Positions 10,508 through 20,488 of a stretch of DNA of 64,000 bases are shown piece by piece. Under the pieces are notes generated by a model. The model saw only the letters and a program-made list of their open reading frames with translations, was not told where the DNA came from and ran no database searches. Source of the stretch: Clostridiales bacterium. Its GTDB lineage: Bacteria > Bacillota > Clostridia > Christensenellales > Aristaeellaceae. The stretch lies in assembly GCA_015056205.1 (NCBI GenBank), contig SVGS01000006.1:62001-126000 (forward strand), given 5' to 3'. A program made the position numbers and the translations under genes. Position 1 is the stretch's first letter. Each line of letters begins with the position of its first letter.

Positions 10508-11866
10508 TCAGGGGCCGTCATGGACGGCTCTTTTTTCGCGGGCGCGGCGGGACAGAACTTTCTGCCAGGGCAGGCCCCAGGCCAGCATGCCGGTCCACCC
10601 GGCTATGCAGGCCACTCCCACGCCGCCGATGCCCATGGTGGGAACCAGCAGCAGGGTCAGAATCACCCGGATGGAGATCTGCGTCAGGGATCCGAGCAGC
10701 GAGCTCTTCATGGCGCCCACTCCCCGGTAGTACCCCTGCAGTCCGTTGGAAAGATGGGGCAGCCAGTAACAGAAACCGATGATATCGAAGTAATGGACTC
10801 CCAGGCTGATCATGACGTCCTCCGTCGTGAACAGGGACATGAGCGGACGGCGCAGGAGCAGAACCACCGCGCTGATACAGATTCCGGCCAGCAGCTCCAG
10901 CAGCATGCCCTTCCGGTAGCCCTCCTCCGTCCGGCCGTGATTGCCCGCGCCCTCATTCTGAGCGATGAAGGCGGTCATGGCGGAGGAGATGCTTCGCCCG
11001 GGCAGCAGGCCGATATCCTCGATTTTCCGTACGGCGCTGTAGGCGGCGGCCGCGGAAATGCCGAGGGTATTGACGCTGCCCTGGATAATGATGTTTCCGA
11101 TCGGCTGCGCGCACTGCTGCAGAGCGGTCAGGCTGCCGTAGGAAAGGGTTCTCCGGGCCAGTCTCCCGTTGATCCGCAGATGTTTCCAGGGAATGCGAAG
11201 CTCGGGAACATTGCGGTTGACGTGCCGGATGCACAGGAGGGCGCTGATGCCCTGAGCCGCGGCGGTGGCCAGCGCCGCGCCGAGAACGCCCAGATGGGCC
11301 CAGGCAACCAGCGCCAGGTCCAGCAGGATGTTGATCAGGCAGGAGACGATCAGAAACCGCACGGGAGTGCGGGCGTCCCCCACGCTGCGAAGCGCGGCGC
11401 CGTAGATATTGTAAAGGCAGGTGAAGGGCATCCCCAGGAAGATAATCCGCAGGTAGACGGATGCCTCATCCAGCGCTTCCGGCTGTACGTTCATCAGCCG
11501 GAAAATCGCCGGAGCCAGGGGAAGGCCGGCCGCCATCACGATGGCGGCGAAGATCAGCCCCAGGCTGAGGGTGGTTGCCATCTCTTCCCTCAGCCGTTCC
11601 AGATCCCTGGCGCCGAAGAAATTGCCCATCAGCACGGAGGCGCCGATGCATACGCCGGATACTCCCAGGATCAGAAGGTTCATGATCTGATCGCAGGTAC
11701 CCACCGCGGCCAGGCTGGTGCTTCCGGCGAAACGGCCGATGACGATGGTGTCAACCATGTTGTAGGAAAGCTGAAACAGATTCCCGAGCATCAGCGGGAT
11801 GGCGAATTGAATCAGCAGGTTCCGGATCCGGCCCTGGGTCAGATCGGTGGTATGACGGTGAGACAT
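10508..11866 (-). CDS. MATE-family efflux transporter
   Basis: A 452-residue integral membrane protein with about 12 hydrophobic segments in two related halves, as in multidrug and toxic-compound extrusion proteins. The first helix region has FAIPLMLGNLFQLSYNMVD, and the mid-protein contains the second inverted half. MATE proteins export cationic or amphipathic compounds against sodium or proton gradients. AGGAGA precedes the ATG at 11866. The stop of the upstream 1089-residue synthase fusion lies only 36 bases away in the same direction, so this exporter is probably cotranscribed with it and may carry its product. It is convergent with the kinase gene. Confidence 0.9.
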   Translation of the reverse strand: MSHRHTTDLTQGRIRNLLIQFAIPLMLGNLFQLSYNMVDTIVIGRFAGSTSLAAVGTCDQIMNLLILGVSGVCIGASVLMGNFFGARDLERLREEMATTLSLGLIFAAIVMAAGLPLAPAIFRLMNVQPEALDEASVYLRIIFLGMPFTCLYNIYGAALRSVGDARTPVRFLIVSCLINILLDLALVAWAHLGVLGAALATAAAQGISALLCIRHVNRNVPELRIPWKHLRINGRLARRTLSYGSLTALQQCAQPIGNIIIQGSVNTLGISAAAAYSAVRKIEDIGLLPGRSISSAMTAFIAQNEGAGNHGRTEEGYRKGMLLELLAGICISAVVLLLRRPLMSLFTTEDVMISLGVHYFDIIGFCYWLPHLSNGLQGYYRGVGAMKSSLLGSLTQISIRVILTLLLVPTMGIGGVGVACIAGWTGMLAWGLPWQKVLSRRAREKRAVHDGP

Positions 11867-11902
11867 CTTTTCTCCTGTAATGCGTCGGAGGGTTCAGTCG
11901 GG

Positions 11903-14900
11903 TCAGTCGTAGTTCCGCCGGGGCAGTTCGATTCCGAATTCACGGGCGGTCTGCTCCAGAATATCCAGCGCGCGTTCAATCTGCTCCGGCTTATGCTCGC
12001 TGATGACGCAGAAACGAAGCCGGGCTTTGCCCTTGGGCACCGCCGGGTACATGGCCGGCGGTACGCTGACCCCGCGCTTTTTCAGTTCGTTGGACAGAAG
12101 CCAGGCATCCTCGTCCTTGCCGACCAGAACGGGCAGCACGGCCGTCTCTCCAGCCAGGCAGATGTCCAGATGGCGGCGCCGGGCGCTGTCCGCGAAGGAA
12201 CGGATGGCGGTGCGCAGATGCTCCATGATTTCGGGATGGGAACGCAGGGTCCGGATGGCGGCCAGTGAACCCGCGGCCAGGGCGGGAGAAATGCCCACGG
12301 AGAAGACGAATCCCGGCATGTTATACCGCAGGTAGTCGATCAGGCACTTTTTCCCGGCCAGATATCCGCCGCAGGTGCCCAGTCCCTTGGACAGCGTGCC
12401 GTATTTGATGTCGATATCGCTGCCGTCCAGTCCGAAATATTCATCCACGCCGCCGCCGGTTTTGCCGATGACGCAGGCGCTGTGGGCTTCGTCCACCATC
12501 AGGAAACAGCCGTATTCCTTTTTGATCCGGACGAAATCGGGAACCGGAGCGATGTCTCCGTCCATGCTGTAGGCGCCTTCAATGACGATCAGAACCTTTT
12601 CATAGAAGGCCCGCTGATTCTTCAGGATCGTTTCAAGAGCTTTCGGATCGCTGTGCGGGAAGGGCCGGGAGGTCGCGTCGCTCAGTTTGCAGCCCTGCTC
12701 GATGGAATTATGCGCCAGCGCGTCGTACAGAATCAGATCCTTTTTGCCGCAGAAATTGCCGACGAAGGTGACGTTGGTGGAATGGCCGCCGACGCATACA
12801 ATGGCGTCCTCCGTGTGCTTCCAGTCGGCGATTTCGGCTTCCAGCTCCTTGTGGACCATCTTTTCGCCGGCCAGCAGGCGGCTTCCGCTGGCGCTGGTTC
12901 CGTATTTGTCGATTGCGGCCTTGGCGGCATCCTTGACCTCTTTCCGGCCGCTCATTCCGATGTAGTTGTAGCTGCCGAATTCCAGAATCTCCTTGCCGTC
13001 CACAATTCCGGTGTCGAGCAGGGGGGATTCATGAGCGACAAAGTAGGGATTGTCTCCTTTTCCGACCAGGGTGTTCTGCCGTTCGACGAAGTGCAGGTAT
13101 TCCGGCGTGTCTTCAAAGCGGGTGATGGGCCGTACGGCCACCCGCTCCGCGGTCCGGCTTTCCGGCAGCGGGCCCTTCAGCAGCGCTTCAACGACCTGGG
13201 CCATTCCGTTCACCGTGGCGCACTGGCCGTACTCTTCGGCGGGAATGGTGATTCCCCATTCCTCTTCCGCCCGCAGGGCCATGGAGAGCACCTGCAGGCT
13301 GTCTCCCTGCAGATCCTCGATAAAGTGCGCGTTGTCGTCGATGTCCCGCTCGGACAGCTCCAGCGCCTCCGCGTACAGCGCCCGGACCTTCTTCCGGATT
13401 TCCTCGCTTACAGCGGTCGGATTGTTCTTTCCTCCAGAAGCGGCGATTTCGGCTCCGGCGCTGCGTTCATGCAGATCCAGCTCCCGGTAAACCAGTTCCT
13501 TTTCTTCATAGAGGCGCTTCAGTTCGATCCGCTTGACCTTGATCCCGCTGACCAGCGGCAGGGCGGAAGACGTCACCAGCGCCCGGTCCAGCTGTGTATA
13601 CAGAGGGAGTCGGCTGTTGGCGTCCGCGACCTGGGCGGCCAGGGTATCCAGATAGGCCTGGTCGGTATAGTTTTCTCCCACATTCATGACCAGCACAATA
13701 TCTTCATTGTTGTCCCGGCGGTTTCTCCGGAAGCCGACCACGCAGAGCTGCTCCACCCCTTTCAGGGAGGCGAAGGCGTCCTCCATATCGTCCGGATAGA
13801 CGTTTTCCCCGGATTCATTGATGATGACATCCTTCAGACGGCCTTTGATATAGATCCGGCCGCTGCTGTCCATCTCGGCGATGTCTCCCGTAGGATACCA
13901 TCCTCCGTCCAGCGTGTCGGGCGGAAGCAGGGCCCCGGAAACCAGGCGGCCGGAGTGAATGCCGGGTCCGCGGACCTGCAGCTCTCCGCTGCGGCCGTTT
14001 TCGCCCGACGGGGCGATCCGGTATTCCGCGGTGCCCAGGGCCGTTCCTACGGAACCGTTCAGCCGGTAGTTCAGGCTCATGGCGTTTTCAAATCCGTTGA
14101 TGGCGGTTTCGGTCATGCCATAGCCCACGACGGTATAATATCCCAGCGCGTTCAGGGTTTTCAGGGTTTCCGCCGGGGCGTGGCTTCCGCCGAGAATCAG
14201 CACCTCCAGCTCCGTTCCCAGCAGGTTCTGATTGACCTTGGCAAAAACCTTTTTCTCCGCCCAGTTCAGAGCCCGGCCGGGCGCGATTCGCTGCAGTCCC
14301 AGGCTCAGACCGCTCATCAGGCGGAACTGGGTCTGCCTGCCGGCTGATTCTTTTTTCAGACTGCGCTGCAGGGATTTGACCAGGCTGTTTCCGACCAGCG
14401 GCACGACCACGGTCATGTGAGGCGGAAAGCGGCGGCAGACTTTCTGGATGGAGGACGGGGTCCGGTCCGGCAGATAGACGCAGCTCATTCCCATAAAATG
14501 GGCCCAGATCACGCAGGCCATGAAGCCGAGCACGTGATGGAAGGGCAGGAAGCAGAGCATCCGGCGGCCGGTATTGTCTGTACCGATAATGCGTGTGTTA
14601 TTCCGGTGCACGGCGAGGGATTTCAGCGCCTGCTCGCAGACCGCTTCACCGCTGTAGGCAAAAATACGGCTGCGGCCGGTGGTTCCGCTCGTGCACATGG
14701 CGACGTATTCTCCCCAGACGGGGGTGAAACCGATAATCCGGGGAGCTTCCGTCACGGTTTTGTAGTCGATCTGGCGTACGTTTCCGGCCAAAGCCCGCGG
14801 CTTCCGGGTGATGATGACCCGGCAGCCGGCTTCATCCAGCAGGCTCTGCAGCTGCCCGTCCTGGGCGGCCGCGTCCAGCAGCAGAGCGTTATGCCCGGAA

Positions 14901-15172
14901 CGCATGATGCCCCAGAACAGGGAAGGCCATTCATAGCAGGTATCCACGGCAACGGCAATCCAGCCACCGTCGGGCGCCTGCGAATTCAGGCAGGCGGCAT
15001 AATCGTCGGCCCGCCGGGCCATTTCCGCGTAGGAACGGCTCATTTCCTGATCTCCGTTCAGCCACAGGGCGGCCGGTAATTCTCCGTAATCGCGGAGAAT
15101 GGAGAACAGTTCCTCCAGTGTTTTGTTGGCTTCCAGACGGGCGCTGACGCTCAGGGCGTCCATGTTCCTCAT
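11903..15172 (-). CDS. Trifunctional AMP-ligase / acyl carrier protein / alpha-oxoamine synthase fusion
   Basis: A single 1089-residue protein with three domains. Residues about 10-570 are an adenylate-forming ligase: TSGTTGRSR (161-169), GYGMTET (350-356), GRLKDVI (445-451) and the C-terminal SGIKVKR lysine. Residues about 590-665 are an acyl carrier domain with the phosphopantetheine attachment Ser625 in GDSLQ. Residues about 700-1085 are a PLP-dependent alpha-oxoamine synthase (BioF/serine-palmitoyltransferase family): DALAHNSIEQG, VDEAHS and the Schiff-base Lys929 in GTLSKGLG. The predicted chemistry is activation of a carboxylic, probably fatty, acid, transfer to the carrier, then decarboxylative condensation with an amino acid to give an alpha-aminoketone. 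The start is set by GGAAGGAGG at 15181-15189 on the minus strand. The substrate and amino acid are not known. Confidence 0.9.
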   Translation of the reverse strand: MRNMDALSVSARLEANKTLEELFSILRDYGELPAALWLNGDQEMSRSYAEMARRADDYAACLNSQAPDGGWIAVAVDTCYEWPSLFWGIMRSGHNALLLDAAAQDGQLQSLLDEAGCRVIITRKPRALAGNVRQIDYKTVTEAPRIIGFTPVWGEYVAMCTSGTTGRSRIFAYSGEAVCEQALKSLAVHRNNTRIIGTDNTGRRMLCFLPFHHVLGFMACVIWAHFMGMSCVYLPDRTPSSIQKVCRRFPPHMTVVVPLVGNSLVKSLQRSLKKESAGRQTQFRLMSGLSLGLQRIAPGRALNWAEKKVFAKVNQNLLGTELEVLILGGSHAPAETLKTLNALGYYTVVGYGMTETAINGFENAMSLNYRLNGSVGTALGTAEYRIAPSGENGRSGELQVRGPGIHSGRLVSGALLPPDTLDGGWYPTGDIAEMDSSGRIYIKGRLKDVIINESGENVYPDDMEDAFASLKGVEQLCVVGFRRNRRDNNEDIVLVMNVGENYTDQAYLDTLAAQVADANSRLPLYTQLDRALVTSSALPLVSGIKVKRIELKRLYEEKELVYRELDLHERSAGAEIAASGGKNNPTAVSEEIRKKVRALYAEALELSERDIDDNAHFIEDLQGDSLQVLSMALRAEEEWGITIPAEEYGQCATVNGMAQVVEALLKGPLPESRTAERVAVRPITRFEDTPEYLHFVERQNTLVGKGDNPYFVAHESPLLDTGIVDGKEILEFGSYNYIGMSGRKEVKDAAKAAIDKYGTSASGSRLLAGEKMVHKELEAEIADWKHTEDAIVCVGGHSTNVTFVGNFCGKKDLILYDALAHNSIEQGCKLSDATSRPFPHSDPKALETILKNQRAFYEKVLIVIEGAYSMDGDIAPVPDFVRIKKEYGCFLMVDEAHSACVIGKTGGGVDEYFGLDGSDIDIKYGTLSKGLGTCGGYLAGKKCLIDYLRYNMPGFVFSVGISPALAAGSLAAIRTLRSHPEIMEHLRTAIRSFADSARRRHLDICLAGETAVLPVLVGKDEDAWLLSNELKKRGVSVPPAMYPAVPKGKARLRFCVISEHKPEQIERALDILEQTAREFGIELPRRNYD

Positions 15173-15266
15173 TGAGGCCTCCTTCCTTTGTGCAGACCCG
15201 GCCGGAAGAAATAAAAAAATAATAATAACGGATAAATGACCCACCGGCCGGCAGGCACATCAACAC

Positions 15267-15446: not shown

Positions 15447-15479
15447 CATGACAGCAATCTCGAAGAAGGGGTGCTCACC

Positions 15480-17645
15480 ATGACAACGGAAAAGCTTCAG
15501 GCGCTGCTGGACAGTATGACAATCAGGGAAAAAGTCGGTCAGCTGGTGCAATGCAACGCGGGCCAGTTTATTCAGAACGACATGGAAATTACCGGCCCGG
15601 AGGGGGAGATGCTTCCCGCGGAGGATCTGAACCGGGTGATGGGCAGCGTGCTGACCTTTGAGGATGCCGCTCAGGCCAAAGCGCTTCAGGAAAGGCATCT
15701 CGCGGCGGATCCGAAAAAGATCCCGCTGCTCCTGATGCTGGACGTGATTCACGGGCTGCGGACGACCTATCCGATCCCGCTGGCGATGGGCTGTTCTTTT
15801 GATGATGATCTGATGGCGGAGTGTGCGGATATGGCCAGGAAGGAGTCGGCCGCCTGCGGGGTCCATGTGACCTTCAACCCGATGGTGGATACCGCCCGGG
15901 ACGCGCGCTGGGGCCGGATTCTCGAGACCAGCTCCGAAGAGCCCCTGCTGAACAGCCGCATGGGCGCGGCTGTGGTGAGAGCGACGCAGGGGGAGGATCT
16001 GAGCCGCCCGGAAAACGTGGCCTGCTGTGTCAAGCATTTTGCCGCTTACGGCGCTCCGGAAGGCGGAAGAGACTACAATACGGTGGATCTGTCGGAGCGG
16101 ACGCTGCGGGAGGTCTATCTTCCCGCGTATAAGGCCTGCCTGGATGCCGGCGCCCGGCTGATCATGCCCTCCTTTAACGCGCTGAACGGCATCCCCTCCG
16201 TGGCGAACCGGTGGCTGATGAACCGGGTACTGCGGGAGGAATGGGGCTTCAAGGGGGTCGTGATCAGCGACTATAACGCGGTGGGCGAACTGGTGGCGCA
16301 CGGCGTGGCGGAAAATCTGAAGGACGCGGTGAGGCTTTCCATGCTGGCCGGCTGCGATATTGATATGGTTCGGAACGCCTATTACCTGCATCTGGAAGAT
16401 CTGGTGCGGGACGGGGTTGTGCCGGAGGAAATGCTGGACCGGGCGGTGATGCGGGTCCTGAAGCTGAAAAACGAGCTGGGGCTGTTTGAAAACCCCTGGC
16501 ACGGCGCGGATGAGGAAGCGGAAAAGAAGCTGTATCTGTGCCCTGCTCACCGTGAAATTGCCCGCCGGGCCGCGGAGGAAAGCGCGGTTCTGCTGAAAAA
16601 CGAAGGGATTCTTCCGCTGAGCGACCGGATCCGGAAAGCGGCGCTGATCGGGCCCTTTGCGGATGAACGGCATCTGGTGGGTTTCTGGAGCCGCCCCGGG
16701 GCCTGGAAGGACGCGGTTACGCTTCCCGAAGGCATTCGGGCGCTGCTGCCGGATCTGGAGCTGATCATTGAGAGAGGCTGCGGCGCGGAAATCGGAGATA
16801 CCGATGAGAGCGGGATCGACCGGGCGGTGGAGGCTGCCCGGAGCGCCGAAGCGGTGATTCTGGCGCTGGGCGAACCGGAGAACGACAGCGGAGAGGGCCG
16901 GAGCCGCGCGACGCTGACGCTTCCCGGCCCGCAGATGACCCTGGCCCGGCGGGTTCTGGCCGCCAACCCGAATACGGCGGTGATCCTTTTCAACGGCAGA
17001 CCGCTGGAGCTGACGGAACTCGATGCCCTGGCGCCGGCGATTCTGGAAATGTGGTATCCCGGAACGGAGGCGGGGAACGCGGCTGCCAGGCTGCTCTTCG
17101 GGCGGGCCAATCCCTGCGGAAAGCTCTCAGCCGGTATGCCCCGCAGCGTCGGACAGTATCCGATGCCCTATAACCGGATGAGTACCGGCCGGCCGAAGCC
17201 GCAGCCGGATTCGCAGGCTTTCCCCTTTACCAGCTGCTATCTGGATACGCCGAATCTGCCCCTGTATTCCTTTGGACACGGGCTGAGCTATACGACGTTT
17301 GCCTATGAGTCGCTGACGCTGGACCGGTCTGTCATGCGGCCGGAGGAATCCGTCCGGGTGACAATCCGGGTCCGGAACACCGGAGAGAGAGCCGGAAAGG
17401 AAGTTGTCCAGCTGTACCTGCGGGATCCGGTCGCTTCCGTTGTACGGCCGGTGCAGCAGCTGATCGATTACCGGAAGATCTCCCTGGAGCCGGATGAGGC
17501 GAAGGAGGTAACCTTCACCGTTACGGAAGAGCAGCTGCGCTTCTGGGATTTCGACTGCGCCTGGCATTCGGAACCCGGGACCTTTGAGCTCTCAACGGGT
17601 TACGCGGATCATCTGCTGCTGACCCAAACCTTTATCCTGCAATAA
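15480..17645 (+). CDS. Glycoside hydrolase family 3 beta-glucosidase
   Basis: A 721-residue cytosolic glycosidase without a signal peptide, so it should act on imported oligosaccharides. The GH3 N-terminal barrel (to about residue 330) carries the nucleophile Asp264 in VVISDYNAV. The second alpha/beta domain (about 350-570) holds GEGRSRATLTLPG and the LFNGRPLELTE strand. The C-terminal fibronectin-III-like domain (about 615-710) has VRNTGERAGKEVVQLYL. The ATG at 15480 is preferred to a GTG nine bases earlier, because AAGGGG is correctly spaced for the ATG. It follows its own promoter and ends at a strong terminator. Beta-xylosidase activity is an alternative. Confidence 0.93.
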   Translation: MTTEKLQALLDSMTIREKVGQLVQCNAGQFIQNDMEITGPEGEMLPAEDLNRVMGSVLTFEDAAQAKALQERHLAADPKKIPLLLMLDVIHGLRTTYPIPLAMGCSFDDDLMAECADMARKESAACGVHVTFNPMVDTARDARWGRILETSSEEPLLNSRMGAAVVRATQGEDLSRPENVACCVKHFAAYGAPEGGRDYNTVDLSERTLREVYLPAYKACLDAGARLIMPSFNALNGIPSVANRWLMNRVLREEWGFKGVVISDYNAVGELVAHGVAENLKDAVRLSMLAGCDIDMVRNAYYLHLEDLVRDGVVPEEMLDRAVMRVLKLKNELGLFENPWHGADEEAEKKLYLCPAHREIARRAAEESAVLLKNEGILPLSDRIRKAALIGPFADERHLVGFWSRPGAWKDAVTLPEGIRALLPDLELIIERGCGAEIGDTDESGIDRAVEAARSAEAVILALGEPENDSGEGRSRATLTLPGPQMTLARRVLAANPNTAVILFNGRPLELTELDALAPAILEMWYPGTEAGNAAARLLFGRANPCGKLSAGMPRSVGQYPMPYNRMSTGRPKPQPDSQAFPFTSCYLDTPNLPLYSFGHGLSYTTFAYESLTLDRSVMRPEESVRVTIRVRNTGERAGKEVVQLYLRDPVASVVRPVQQLIDYRKISLEPDEAKEVTFTVTEEQLRFWDFDCAWHSEPGTFELSTGYADHLLLTQTFILQ

Positions 17646-18642: not shown

Positions 18643-20052
18643 ATGGCTCGTACGCTTACCCGGGATCTGACGGTGGGAAAACCCCTGAAACTTGTTCTGA
18701 ACTTTGCCGCGCCGCTTTTGTTCGGCGTTCTTTTTCAGCAGTTTTATTCCTTTGTGGATACTGCGATTGTCGGCAGATATCTGGGGGCGGACAAGCTGGC
18801 GGCTGTCGGGGCGACGGGCTCTGTGAATTTTCTGGTGATCGGCCTGTGCCTGGGGCTCTGCTCCGGTTTTGCCATTCCCGTGGCCCAGGCCTTCGGCGCG
18901 CGGGATGAGAGCGATGTGCGGCGGAACGTCTGGCACGCGGGGGTTCTCAGCGCGGTTCTGTCCCTGGTGTTCGCCGTGGCGGCGGTTCTTCTGTGCAAGC
19001 CGCTGCTTCGCCTGATGAATACGCCGGAGGAGATTCTGGAAGATTCCGCCGCTTACATCAGCATTATCTTTGCGGCGATCCCCTGCTGCGTACTGTACAA
19101 TATGGCCAGCGGGATTCTTCGCTCCCTGGGAGACAGCCGGACGCCTGTACTCTTTTTGATTATTGCTTCCCTGATCAATATTGTGCTGGATCTGTTCCTG
19201 ATTGTGGTCATGAAGATGGATGTGGCGGGCGCCGCGGTGGCTACCGCGGTCAGCCAGCTGCTGGCCGGAATCGGCTGTCTGATCGTGATGATCCGGCGGT
19301 TCCCGATTCTGCGGATGAAGCGGGAGGACCGGCAGTTTTCCCTGCAGGTGGCCCAAAAAATGCTGATGATCGGGCTTCCGATGGGACTGCAGTTCTCGAT
19401 TACGGCGATCGGCTCCGTTGTAGTTCAGTGGTCCGTGAACGGCCTGGGAGTGAACGCTGTCGCGGCGGTCAGCGCCGCCGGAAAACTCAGCGCCTTCTTT
19501 GCCTGCGTGTTTGACGCGCTTTCCTCCACCATGGCCACCTTCGCCGGCCAGAATATCGGCGCCCGGAAGCTGGACCGGGTTCATGAGGGGCTGAAGGCGG
19601 CTTCTCTGGTGGGCGTTCTGTACTGTATCGGAGCGTTCGCGGTGGTGCTGCTGTTTACCCGTCCGCTGCTGAGCCTGTTTATTGATACGGCCGCGGCAAA
19701 AGAAGTAGCGGACATGGGAGTCCGCTACCTGACCATTAACGCAGCCTTTTATATTCCGCTTTTGTTTGTGAATATTGTCCGCCTGTCGATCCAGGGAATG
19801 GGCTTTACGCGGGTCGCCATGTTTGCCGGGCTGTTTGAGATGGTGGCCCGTACGGCTGTCGCTCTGTTCCTGGTGCCTGTTCTGGGCTTTACCGGAGCCT
19901 GCCTGGCGAATCCGGCCGCCTGGATTGCCGCGGATCTTTTCCTGTTCCCCTGCTATTTCCGCACCATGCGGACGCTGCGGATGAGGCTCATGCCGGACAC
20001 CCATGAATACCGGGAGCCGGCAAAGCTTCATCTGCTGCGGCGCAGCGCCTGA
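18643..20052 (+). CDS. MATE-family efflux transporter (second copy)
   Basis: A 469-residue integral membrane exporter with about 12 hydrophobic helices. The N-terminal FAAPLLFGVLFQQFYSFVD and IVGRYLGADKLAAVGATG segments are typical of the DinF/NorM-like MATE group. It is only distantly similar to the exporter at 10508-11866, so it is not a recent duplicate. The stop directly abuts the stop of the convergent small double-glycine-leader gene, and no terminator is seen between them. Its cargo is unknown. Confidence 0.9.
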   Translation: MARTLTRDLTVGKPLKLVLNFAAPLLFGVLFQQFYSFVDTAIVGRYLGADKLAAVGATGSVNFLVIGLCLGLCSGFAIPVAQAFGARDESDVRRNVWHAGVLSAVLSLVFAVAAVLLCKPLLRLMNTPEEILEDSAAYISIIFAAIPCCVLYNMASGILRSLGDSRTPVLFLIIASLINIVLDLFLIVVMKMDVAGAAVATAVSQLLAGIGCLIVMIRRFPILRMKREDRQFSLQVAQKMLMIGLPMGLQFSITAIGSVVVQWSVNGLGVNAVAAVSAAGKLSAFFACVFDALSSTMATFAGQNIGARKLDRVHEGLKAASLVGVLYCIGAFAVVLLFTRPLLSLFIDTAAAKEVADMGVRYLTINAAFYIPLLFVNIVRLSIQGMGFTRVAMFAGLFEMVARTAVALFLVPVLGFTGACLANPAAWIAADLFLFPCYFRTMRTLRMRLMPDTHEYREPAKLHLLRRSA

Positions 20053-20346
20053 TCAGCGTCCCATCCCGACGAAGGAGGTAGCGATCCATCCGGTAAGCGT
20101 CACGCCGTTTTTCTCGTAGCGGATTTGCACAAAATGACGATCGGAAGCCGGGTCGTATTCCACGCTGCCGAATGTGTCCACGATCGTACCGTTGACCAGG
20201 GAGTCCTGCTGGTTATGTGCGGCGGTAGTCGGCGAGCTGCGAACCTGCGCTTTATCGTTGGTGCCCGTTTTGATCGGCCGGCGAATTCCGCCGGAAACTT
20301 CATCCATCAGGCTGTCATCCAGTTCCACCATTTTCTTTTCTTCCAT
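20053..20346 (-). CDS. Small protein with double-glycine leader and SH3-like domain
   Basis: A 97-residue protein. Residues 1-20 look like a bacteriocin or peptide-pheromone leader: acidic, with ELDDSLMDEVSGG, ending in Gly-Gly. A peptidase-containing ABC exporter would cut after that pair. The remaining 77 residues read as a bacterial SH3 domain: VRSSPTT near the start and LTGWIATSFVG at the end, with about 45 residues between. No lanthionine-type Ser/Thr/Cys pattern and no Cys are present. The start at 20346 is set by AGGAGG eight bases upstream; earlier in-frame codons would place that site inside the gene. No matching exporter or modification enzyme is in the window. Its function is not known. 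Confidence 0.75.
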   Translation of the reverse strand: MEEKKMVELDDSLMDEVSGGIRRPIKTGTNDKAQVRSSPTTAAHNQQDSLVNGTIVDTFGSVEYDPASDRHFVQIRYEKNGVTLTGWIATSFVGMGR

Positions 20347-20488
20347 TTCTCTTTCCTCCTTAATCATCAATTACGCTGCCTCAGCCACGATTCGGGTATT
20401 TCCGCCAGTTGATACGCACGAAGCGGAATGGATGGCATCTGCTTTGAAAAATTCAGTGAAACTTTTTCTTTCCCGCCATCCGGAACGC

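Follow-up and report, generated by a model that had tools for sequence, protein, structure and literature searches.

What does a protein make that joins an AMP-forming ligase, a carrier protein and an alpha-oxoamine synthase (AOS) in one chain, and does the MATE exporter encoded beside it secrete the product? This question is raised by a stretch of 64,000 nucleotides from a Clostridiales bacterium (contig SVGS01000006.1, positions 62,001 to 126,000; G000:C20:62001-126000 in our numbering of genomes, G, contigs, C, and loci, L), which as a whole is called the window here and which carries both genes on its minus strand. An earlier note, made from the sequence of the window, had suggested carrier-linked AOS chemistry and a sphingoid-base precursor as its outcome. 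This proposal has gained support, and the reading that the fusion is a self-contained sphingoid-base synthase is given a probability of roughly 0.7, because the AOS domain joins synthases from polyketide synthase (PKS) and capsule loci with the SgaAB gene arrangement, and because a KdsR-like reductase co-occurs with it.

Three domains in a single protein

The 1089-residue fusion described in the earlier note, with Ser625 on the carrier and Lys929 in the pyridoxal phosphate (PLP) synthase, was found again by reading of the open reading frame (ORF), by Pfam and in an alignment of 30 rows, in all of which the two residues are invariant; the 29 rows besides that of the window are 58-97% identical to it. 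The ligase region matches AMP-binding (residues 34-408, 1.6e-37) and AMP-binding_C_3 (residues 448-550), and the fatty acyl-CoA synthetase FadD13 is its top solved-structure match in a PDB sequence search (1.5e-19), which would fit a fatty acid as substrate of the ligase without proving it. The AOS domain is matched by Aminotran_1_2 (residues 728-1071, 5.9e-44). Pfam finds no ketosynthase or acyltransferase domain in the fusion protein, the neighbouring ORFs of the window having been read by eye only; the ORF on its 5' side (15471-17645) lies on the opposite strand.

Table 1. Features of the fusion locus and the unlinked reductase gene; positions are those of the window unless a contig is given.
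Feature	Position	Strand	Evidence
Fusion gene, AMP-forming ligase + carrier protein + AOS, 1089 codons plus stop (ATG at 15172, stop at 11903)	11903..15172	minus	ORF reading, Pfam, alignment, order-wide search
Shine-Dalgarno-like AAGGAGG ahead of the fusion ATG	15178..15184	minus	read in sequence
Adenylate-forming ligase region, residues 34-550 (AMP-binding + AMP-binding_C_3)	13523..15073	minus	Pfam, PDB sequence search
Carrier protein domain, residues 595-660 (Ser625 codon 13298-13300)	13193..13390	minus	Pfam PP-binding, 2.5e-10
AOS domain, residues 728-1071 (Lys929 codon 12386-12388)	11960..12991	minus	Pfam, trees, residue counts
MATE exporter gene, 36 bases past the fusion stop; lineage-specific accessory	10508..11866	minus	Pfam MatE, 6.4e-60
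KdsR-like reductase of the same genome, 276 residues, unlinked to the fusion	G000:C6:21335-22120		profile A2, 381.8 bits

In the proposed pathway, a free fatty acid would be activated as acyl-AMP by the N-terminal domain and then bound to the phosphopantetheine arm of Ser625. From this acyl thioester and an amino acid, L-serine being the likeliest, the PLP enzyme at the C-terminus would form a 3-ketosphinganine-type aminoketone by condensation, with release of CO2, and a KdsR-like short-chain dehydrogenase/reductase (SDR) acting in trans would reduce the ketone to a sphinganine-type base. In this scheme we infer the chain length, the amino acid, the loading in cis, the substrate of the reductase, any further steps and a possible role for the MATE protein; the domain order, the catalytic residues, the grouping of the AOS, its conservation and the presence and linkage of the reductase can be read from the sequences compared below. 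The earlier note had also pointed out that no phosphopantetheinyl transferase gene adjoins the fusion, which is true and says little, as the genome holds two matches to this family (PF01648). By eye, we take these to be AcpS and an Sfp-like enzyme.

A scan of genome contigs gave 30 near-relative loci, of which 29 cover nearly the whole query and one (L019), at the end of a contig, begins only at residue 47; every record is titled Clostridia or Clostridiales bacterium, and 16 of the 30 titles name an animal gut or feces site. Across the order, a near-full-length fusion (query start at or before 12, end at or after 1070, two best candidates per genome scored) is present in 27 of 396 genomes, that of the window included, so that the domain order is no chance event. 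These belong to the families f1 (20), f21 (3) and f31 (4), and two genomes that hold the fusion in two contig pieces (G048 and G006) were left out of the 27. Within f1 the fusion is found in 20 of the 34 listed genomes, and two more (G079 and G311) have the AOS alone. Among 398 genomes of the phylum, searched at E up to 1e-90, the full-length fusion was seen in the window's own genome only, while carrier-AOS proteins were found in G431 and G735 and a ligase-carrier protein in G707. Therefore, the modules also occur in shorter combinations.

Several observations concern such combinations and the flanks of the fusion. G021 encodes two proteins, of 668 and 677 residues (L067:8659-10674 and L068:8360-10393), that have a ligase and a carrier but no AOS, the first of them between genes that we take to be PHP-like and mutS2-like; the same neighbours, with one gene more, flank the fusion of L060. 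A gene for a CDP-alcohol phosphatidyltransferase, which could add a phospho head group, lies just before the clade's carrier-AOS gene in L134:8506-10722 (G431; checked by Pfam) and L135:8989-11207 (G735). In L028 (8515-9786, minus strand) and five more near-relative loci a PapA-like, acyltransferase-type protein is encoded upstream of the fusion and divergently from it, with a weak Pfam match of 21 bits against a cut-off of 30.

Placement of the synthase domain

The AOS domain stays below the cut-off of all eight NCBIfam models listed for it. It scores 342 bits with bioF (cut-off 426), 289 with KBL (460) and 234 with ALAS (339), and 289, 274 and 227 bits with three models of serine palmitoyltransferase (SPT; 640, 500 and 670, respectively). 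As bioF gives the highest bit score, the domain might be seen as a diverted BioF or KBL of biotin or threonine metabolism. This is highly improbable: the score misses the bioF cut-off, the domain lies outside BioF, KBL and ALAS in both trees described below, a bioB search of the genome, whose assembly is about 91% complete, gave no match (bioB being the only bio gene searched for), and a fused fatty-acid-type ligase and carrier would be useless in such a role. The BioF reading was rejected for the sub-cut-off score, the tree position and the lack of a bioB match. The earlier note had named two findings that would speak against its proposal, a MATE neighbour that is not conserved and a PLP domain nested within BioF with biotin genes nearby; the first was encountered and the second was not.

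A search of a plasmid collection (704 records; 18 of 40 listed matches examined) returned the C-terminal AOS of a Planktothrix PKS as the nearest named relative (48.6%), with further near relatives in Shinella, Streptomyces, Paraburkholderia, Pseudomonas and Sinorhizobium. In five of the first six regions examined, a PKS is encoded upstream or within the same protein (in Streptomyces by Pfam); in the sixth, from Sinorhizobium, the gene upstream is very large and bears an SDR annotation, and capsule genes or a polysaccharide-precursor gene lie near the AOS in four of the six.

Two maximum-likelihood trees with midpoint roots were built from 38 and 45 rows, which comprised the window, five of the 30 near loci, 14 (first tree) or 15 (second tree) other rows of the fusion clade and named AOS families; from the first to the second tree L063 was taken out and two carrier-AOS rows were brought in. 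Proteobacterial SPT (including that of Caulobacter), CqsA and PfSgaB are not among the rows. The comparison of the PLP domain with SPT, BioF and KBL that the earlier note had asked for, along with CqsA, places the fusion AOS apart from all three. The fusion clade is supported at 100/98 in the first and 100/100 in the second tree, and it is joined to the PKS- and capsule-associated AOSs (PKS/Rkp rows) at 100/100 in both. By themselves the PKS/Rkp rows are firm in the first tree (98/96) and weak in the second (39/50), where a Nocardia AOS also sits on the joined branch, and therefore it is safe to say only that they fall within the same larger clade. SPT, PigH-like, BioF, KBL and ALAS rows are outside this clade in both trees, with the six SPT rows from Bacteroidota and Clostridia forming a branch of their own (100/99 in the first tree). 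Judged by score and by grouping, the domain would therefore not count as a canonical SPT.

The residues expected of an alpha-oxoamine synthase are present, as His821, Asp894, His897, the PLP-binding Lys929 and Arg1053 are kept in all 21 fusion-clade rows of the second tree. A further position separates the groups. At the site of Tyr735, tyrosine stands in 32/32 rows on this side of the tree (21 fusion-clade, eight PKS/Rkp and three other actinobacterial rows of the 45-row set) and asparagine in all 13 SPT, BioF, KBL, ALAS and PigH-like rows of that set; among the 20 clade rows of the first set, tyrosine stands in 19, with L063 as the exception.

This position bears on the amino acid that is condensed. 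In the SPT of S. multivorum, the equivalent Asn52 touches the hydroxymethyl group of serine via water, as described in PMC10912632. With a tyrosine in place of this serine-contacting asparagine, and with AOS specificity not safely readable from sequence, the same enzyme logic could run on alanine or glycine and yield lipids of the 1-deoxysphinganine or simple aminoketone type, whether reduced or not. We consider this unlikely, since the tyrosine is shared by the PKS/capsule-type AOSs (8/8 rows, PfSgaB not among them), and PfSgaB, whose genes are arranged in the same way, accepts almost no amino acid other than L-serine according to PMC12134224. L-serine remains the most likely amino acid in the sphingoid-base pathway.

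Another AOS of the larger clade stands in a gene row of its own on an Acidisoma plasmid (L141, 4040-6825), between an SDR and a sterol-desaturase-family gene and near capsule genes; such a row would fit a hydroxylated sphingoid base.

The reductase partner and related pathways

Nine genomes (G293, G155, G302, G374, G129, G243, G114, G221 and G347) encode a KdsR-like SDR directly 5' of the fusion and on its strand; in L053 (G293) the SDR stop codon precedes the first codon of the fusion alignment by 5 bases. With profile A2, built from five of these upstream SDRs (two rows lacking the N-terminus; the top scores of the five source genomes are a consequence of this design), the SDR was found in all 22 f1 genomes with the AOS, at 307-465 bits and directly upstream in 9 of the 22, and none of the 22 has a second SDR of at least 100 bits. 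By contrast, 11 of the 12 f1 genomes without the AOS have no such SDR (best 183 bits), G003 being the exception at 322 bits, and no SDR exceeds 209 bits in 13 genomes of other families; the genomes in these counts are related and do not represent independent events.

In the window's own genome the SDR is unlinked (Table 1), and its top NCBIfam model is NF049977, 3-ketodihydrosphingosine reductase. This model, which we assume to cover the reductase BT_0972, is also the best for two of three upstream copies scanned and the second for the third, at 192-215 bits against a cut-off of 400. The own-genome protein carries TGASSGLG, FSS and YTASK, in agreement with the classical SDR motifs TGxxxGxG and Ser-Tyr-Lys. 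The suggestion of the earlier note that the product may remain a ketone is thus unlikely, given the KdsR-like SDR upstream in sister genera and the unlinked copy here. An SDR-AOS pair in L065 first clustered with the KdsR-like SDRs and was then left uncounted, as its SDR reads as what we take to be a KduD-type enzyme beside a KduI-like gene; the genome concerned, G079, has its own KdsR-like SDR on a different contig.

Other genes of AOS type are present in these genomes. Bacteroidota-type SPT-like genes (above 500 bits, none above the cut-off of 640) occur in 4 of the 34 f1 genomes, none of which has the fusion, as if the two replaced each other in this family. One more AOS-type match (302-338 bits) is found in 9 of the 22 AOS-bearing f1 genomes, while in the window's genome the fusion is the single AOS match at E up to 1e-40. 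Elsewhere among Clostridia of the order, stand-alone SPT-like genes lie directly by KdsR-like SDRs (L108:9976-11151 in G201, L109:842-2023 in G004 and L110:9228-10454 in G010; SPT-like 504-561 bits, cut-off 640; SDRs 221-282 bits, cut-off 400), which makes up a second, canonical-looking sphingoid pair.

The closest parallel in terms of gene arrangement is found in Pseudomonas fluorescens MYb115, where the iterative PKS PfSgaA and the AOS PfSgaB produce sphinganines, purified PfSgaB converts acyl-CoA surrogates and almost exclusively L-serine to 3-ketosphinganines, and PfSgaC, a KDSR-like SDR of the cluster, is proposed to reduce the ketone (PMC12134224). PfSgaB has the gene arrangement seen in the larger clade to which the fusion AOS belongs, and both systems would share an acyl chain delivered on a carrier and a KDSR-type SDR proposed to finish the base. 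However, an iterative type I PKS builds the chain in Pseudomonas, the fused ligase would supply it here, and separate genes there stand against one protein in Clostridia. In the main text of PMC12134224 neither Firmicutes nor Clostrid nor Bacillota is matched; the paper also has a table of 6,101 clusters of homologues, which lies outside this check.

The Caulobacter enzyme AasR acylates the carrier AcpR; rhodobacterial SPTs prefer acyl-AcpR as their substrate and in this way may direct free fatty acids into sphingolipids (PMC9386255). An acyl-ACP synthetase, a dedicated acyl carrier protein (ACP) and an SPT thus pass fatty acids into 3-ketosphinganine, as proposed for the fusion, but as three proteins, and the fusion AOS is far under the SPT model cut-offs in comparisons whose trees hold no Caulobacter SPT. 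The rhizobial Rkp system (RkpA, RkpG, RkpH) resembles the fusion in that the AOS of L118, flanked by a very large gene on one side and an SDR on the other, with capsule genes nearby, belongs to the same larger clade; it differs by its capsule context and the lack of a fused ligase, and the Rkp names are our assignment from gene order rather than annotation. A carrier fused to an AOS is also seen in L126, which we label a PigH-like prodiginine protein, but this falls beside SPT and outside the fusion clade, and its ligase is a separate neighbouring gene. Bacteroidota share the SPT-type condensation followed by an SDR of the NF049977-named kind, BT_0972 (PMC9278070), while their SPT stands alone and on its own branch. 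BioWF has an acyl-activating ligase fused to an AOS, in that case for pimelate, with a CoA thioester and in the biotin pathway (PMC9544090). The sponge Swf cluster (PMC3908369) was discarded as a comparison, as it concerns reductase and sulphotransferase domains and not an AOS.

A number of points weigh against a sphingoid-base synthase and have to be considered together. The top-scoring NCBIfam model for the AOS is bioF, at 342 bits under a cut-off of 426; Tyr735 replaces the equivalent of Asn52 in the S. multivorum SPT (PMC10912632), so that serine is not proven; and PfSgaB itself is outside the tree set, its kinship with the fusion resting on gene arrangement. Two of the 27 fusions (in G229 and G164) are of a type whose AOS has lost catalytic residues: that of G229 (L063:8068-11229) lacks the equivalents of His821 and Lys929 on a very long branch (3.3), with ligase and carrier still found by Pfam, and L064 of G164 is alike, residues and Pfam having been checked for L063. 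The own-genome SDR reaches 223 of the 400 bits required by NF049977 and is not a certified KdsR, and in 10 genomes of other families (f21, f31 and f6) the best SDR has at most 187 bits, which confines the reductase link to one family. The SDRs beside the PKS/capsule AOSs of L114 and L118 have no NF049977 listing at E up to 1e-30, and therefore a KdsR-like partner is not a trait of the whole larger clade. Finally, no N-acyltransferase or head-group enzyme was identified, ceramide synthase and head-group genes not having been searched for systematically.

The MATE neighbour and the meaning of the fusion

The MATE gene lies where the earlier note had placed it, and its adjacency to the three-domain order proved not to be general: it adjoins the fusion in 2 of the 30 near-relative loci (namely L029 and L034, which have the highest identity to the window; L019 and L027 carry less than 1 kb downstream). 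For this reason the MATE protein was dropped as a core partner in general. A search of 17 genomes for the window's MATE, at E up to 1e-100, gave matches in three (G000, G311 and G079). In G079 it is the gene preceding the stand-alone AOS of L065, an order that differs from fusion-MATE as found in L029, L034 and the window. The match in G311 contains one TGA and is unlinked. That two gene arrangements adjoin the same AOS clade speaks for a real but local link, and with the three genome matches the MATE counts as an accessory confined to a small sub-lineage, outside the core system. The idea of the earlier note that the MATE protein exports the product thus fails as a general role and is weakly supported by the adjacency in two arrangements. 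A convergent gene, which we take to be mnmG, is present in 24 of the 30 near-relative loci. The window has a second MATE gene (18643-20052), 36% identical to the first, and adjoining this second gene is a small protein (20053-20370, minus strand) with a leader-like N-terminus ending in double glycine (LDDSLMDEVSGG).

With such a neighbour in the window, L029 and L034, and in the other order in L065, and with MATE exporters serving several natural products by their NCBIfam names, the fusion could be an enzyme of secondary metabolism whose aminoketone is exported as a signal or antibiotic, similar to prodigiosin or CAI-1. This is quite unlikely, as the MATE is confined to 3 of 17 genomes while the fusion is conserved across genera, the PigH-like rows are outside the fusion clade, and the co-occurring partner is a KdsR-like SDR.

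Descriptions of bacterial sphingolipids come from Bacteroidetes and Proteobacteria (PMC9386255); in the gut, the sphingolipids of Bacteroides modulate immune and metabolic functions of the host (PMC10865984). Neither a ligase-carrier-AOS fusion nor a Clostridial version of the pathway is named in the titles and abstract openings of the open-access papers that our searches listed, a scope that covers few subscription journals. A wider and rather doubtful extension is that the one-protein line is a third route to sphinganine-type bases in the Clostridia of this order, many of them from the ruminant gut, and that the sub-lineage has a dedicated MATE to release the free base, either as a signal or as a weapon, towards the host or competitors. 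Should the fusion indeed be a self-contained synthase of sphingoid bases, the known sphingolipid producers would be joined by a group of gut-associated Clostridia, and carrier-dependent SPT chemistry could run from free fatty acids within one protein. The fusion would also provide a single gene with a product open to testing in E. coli.

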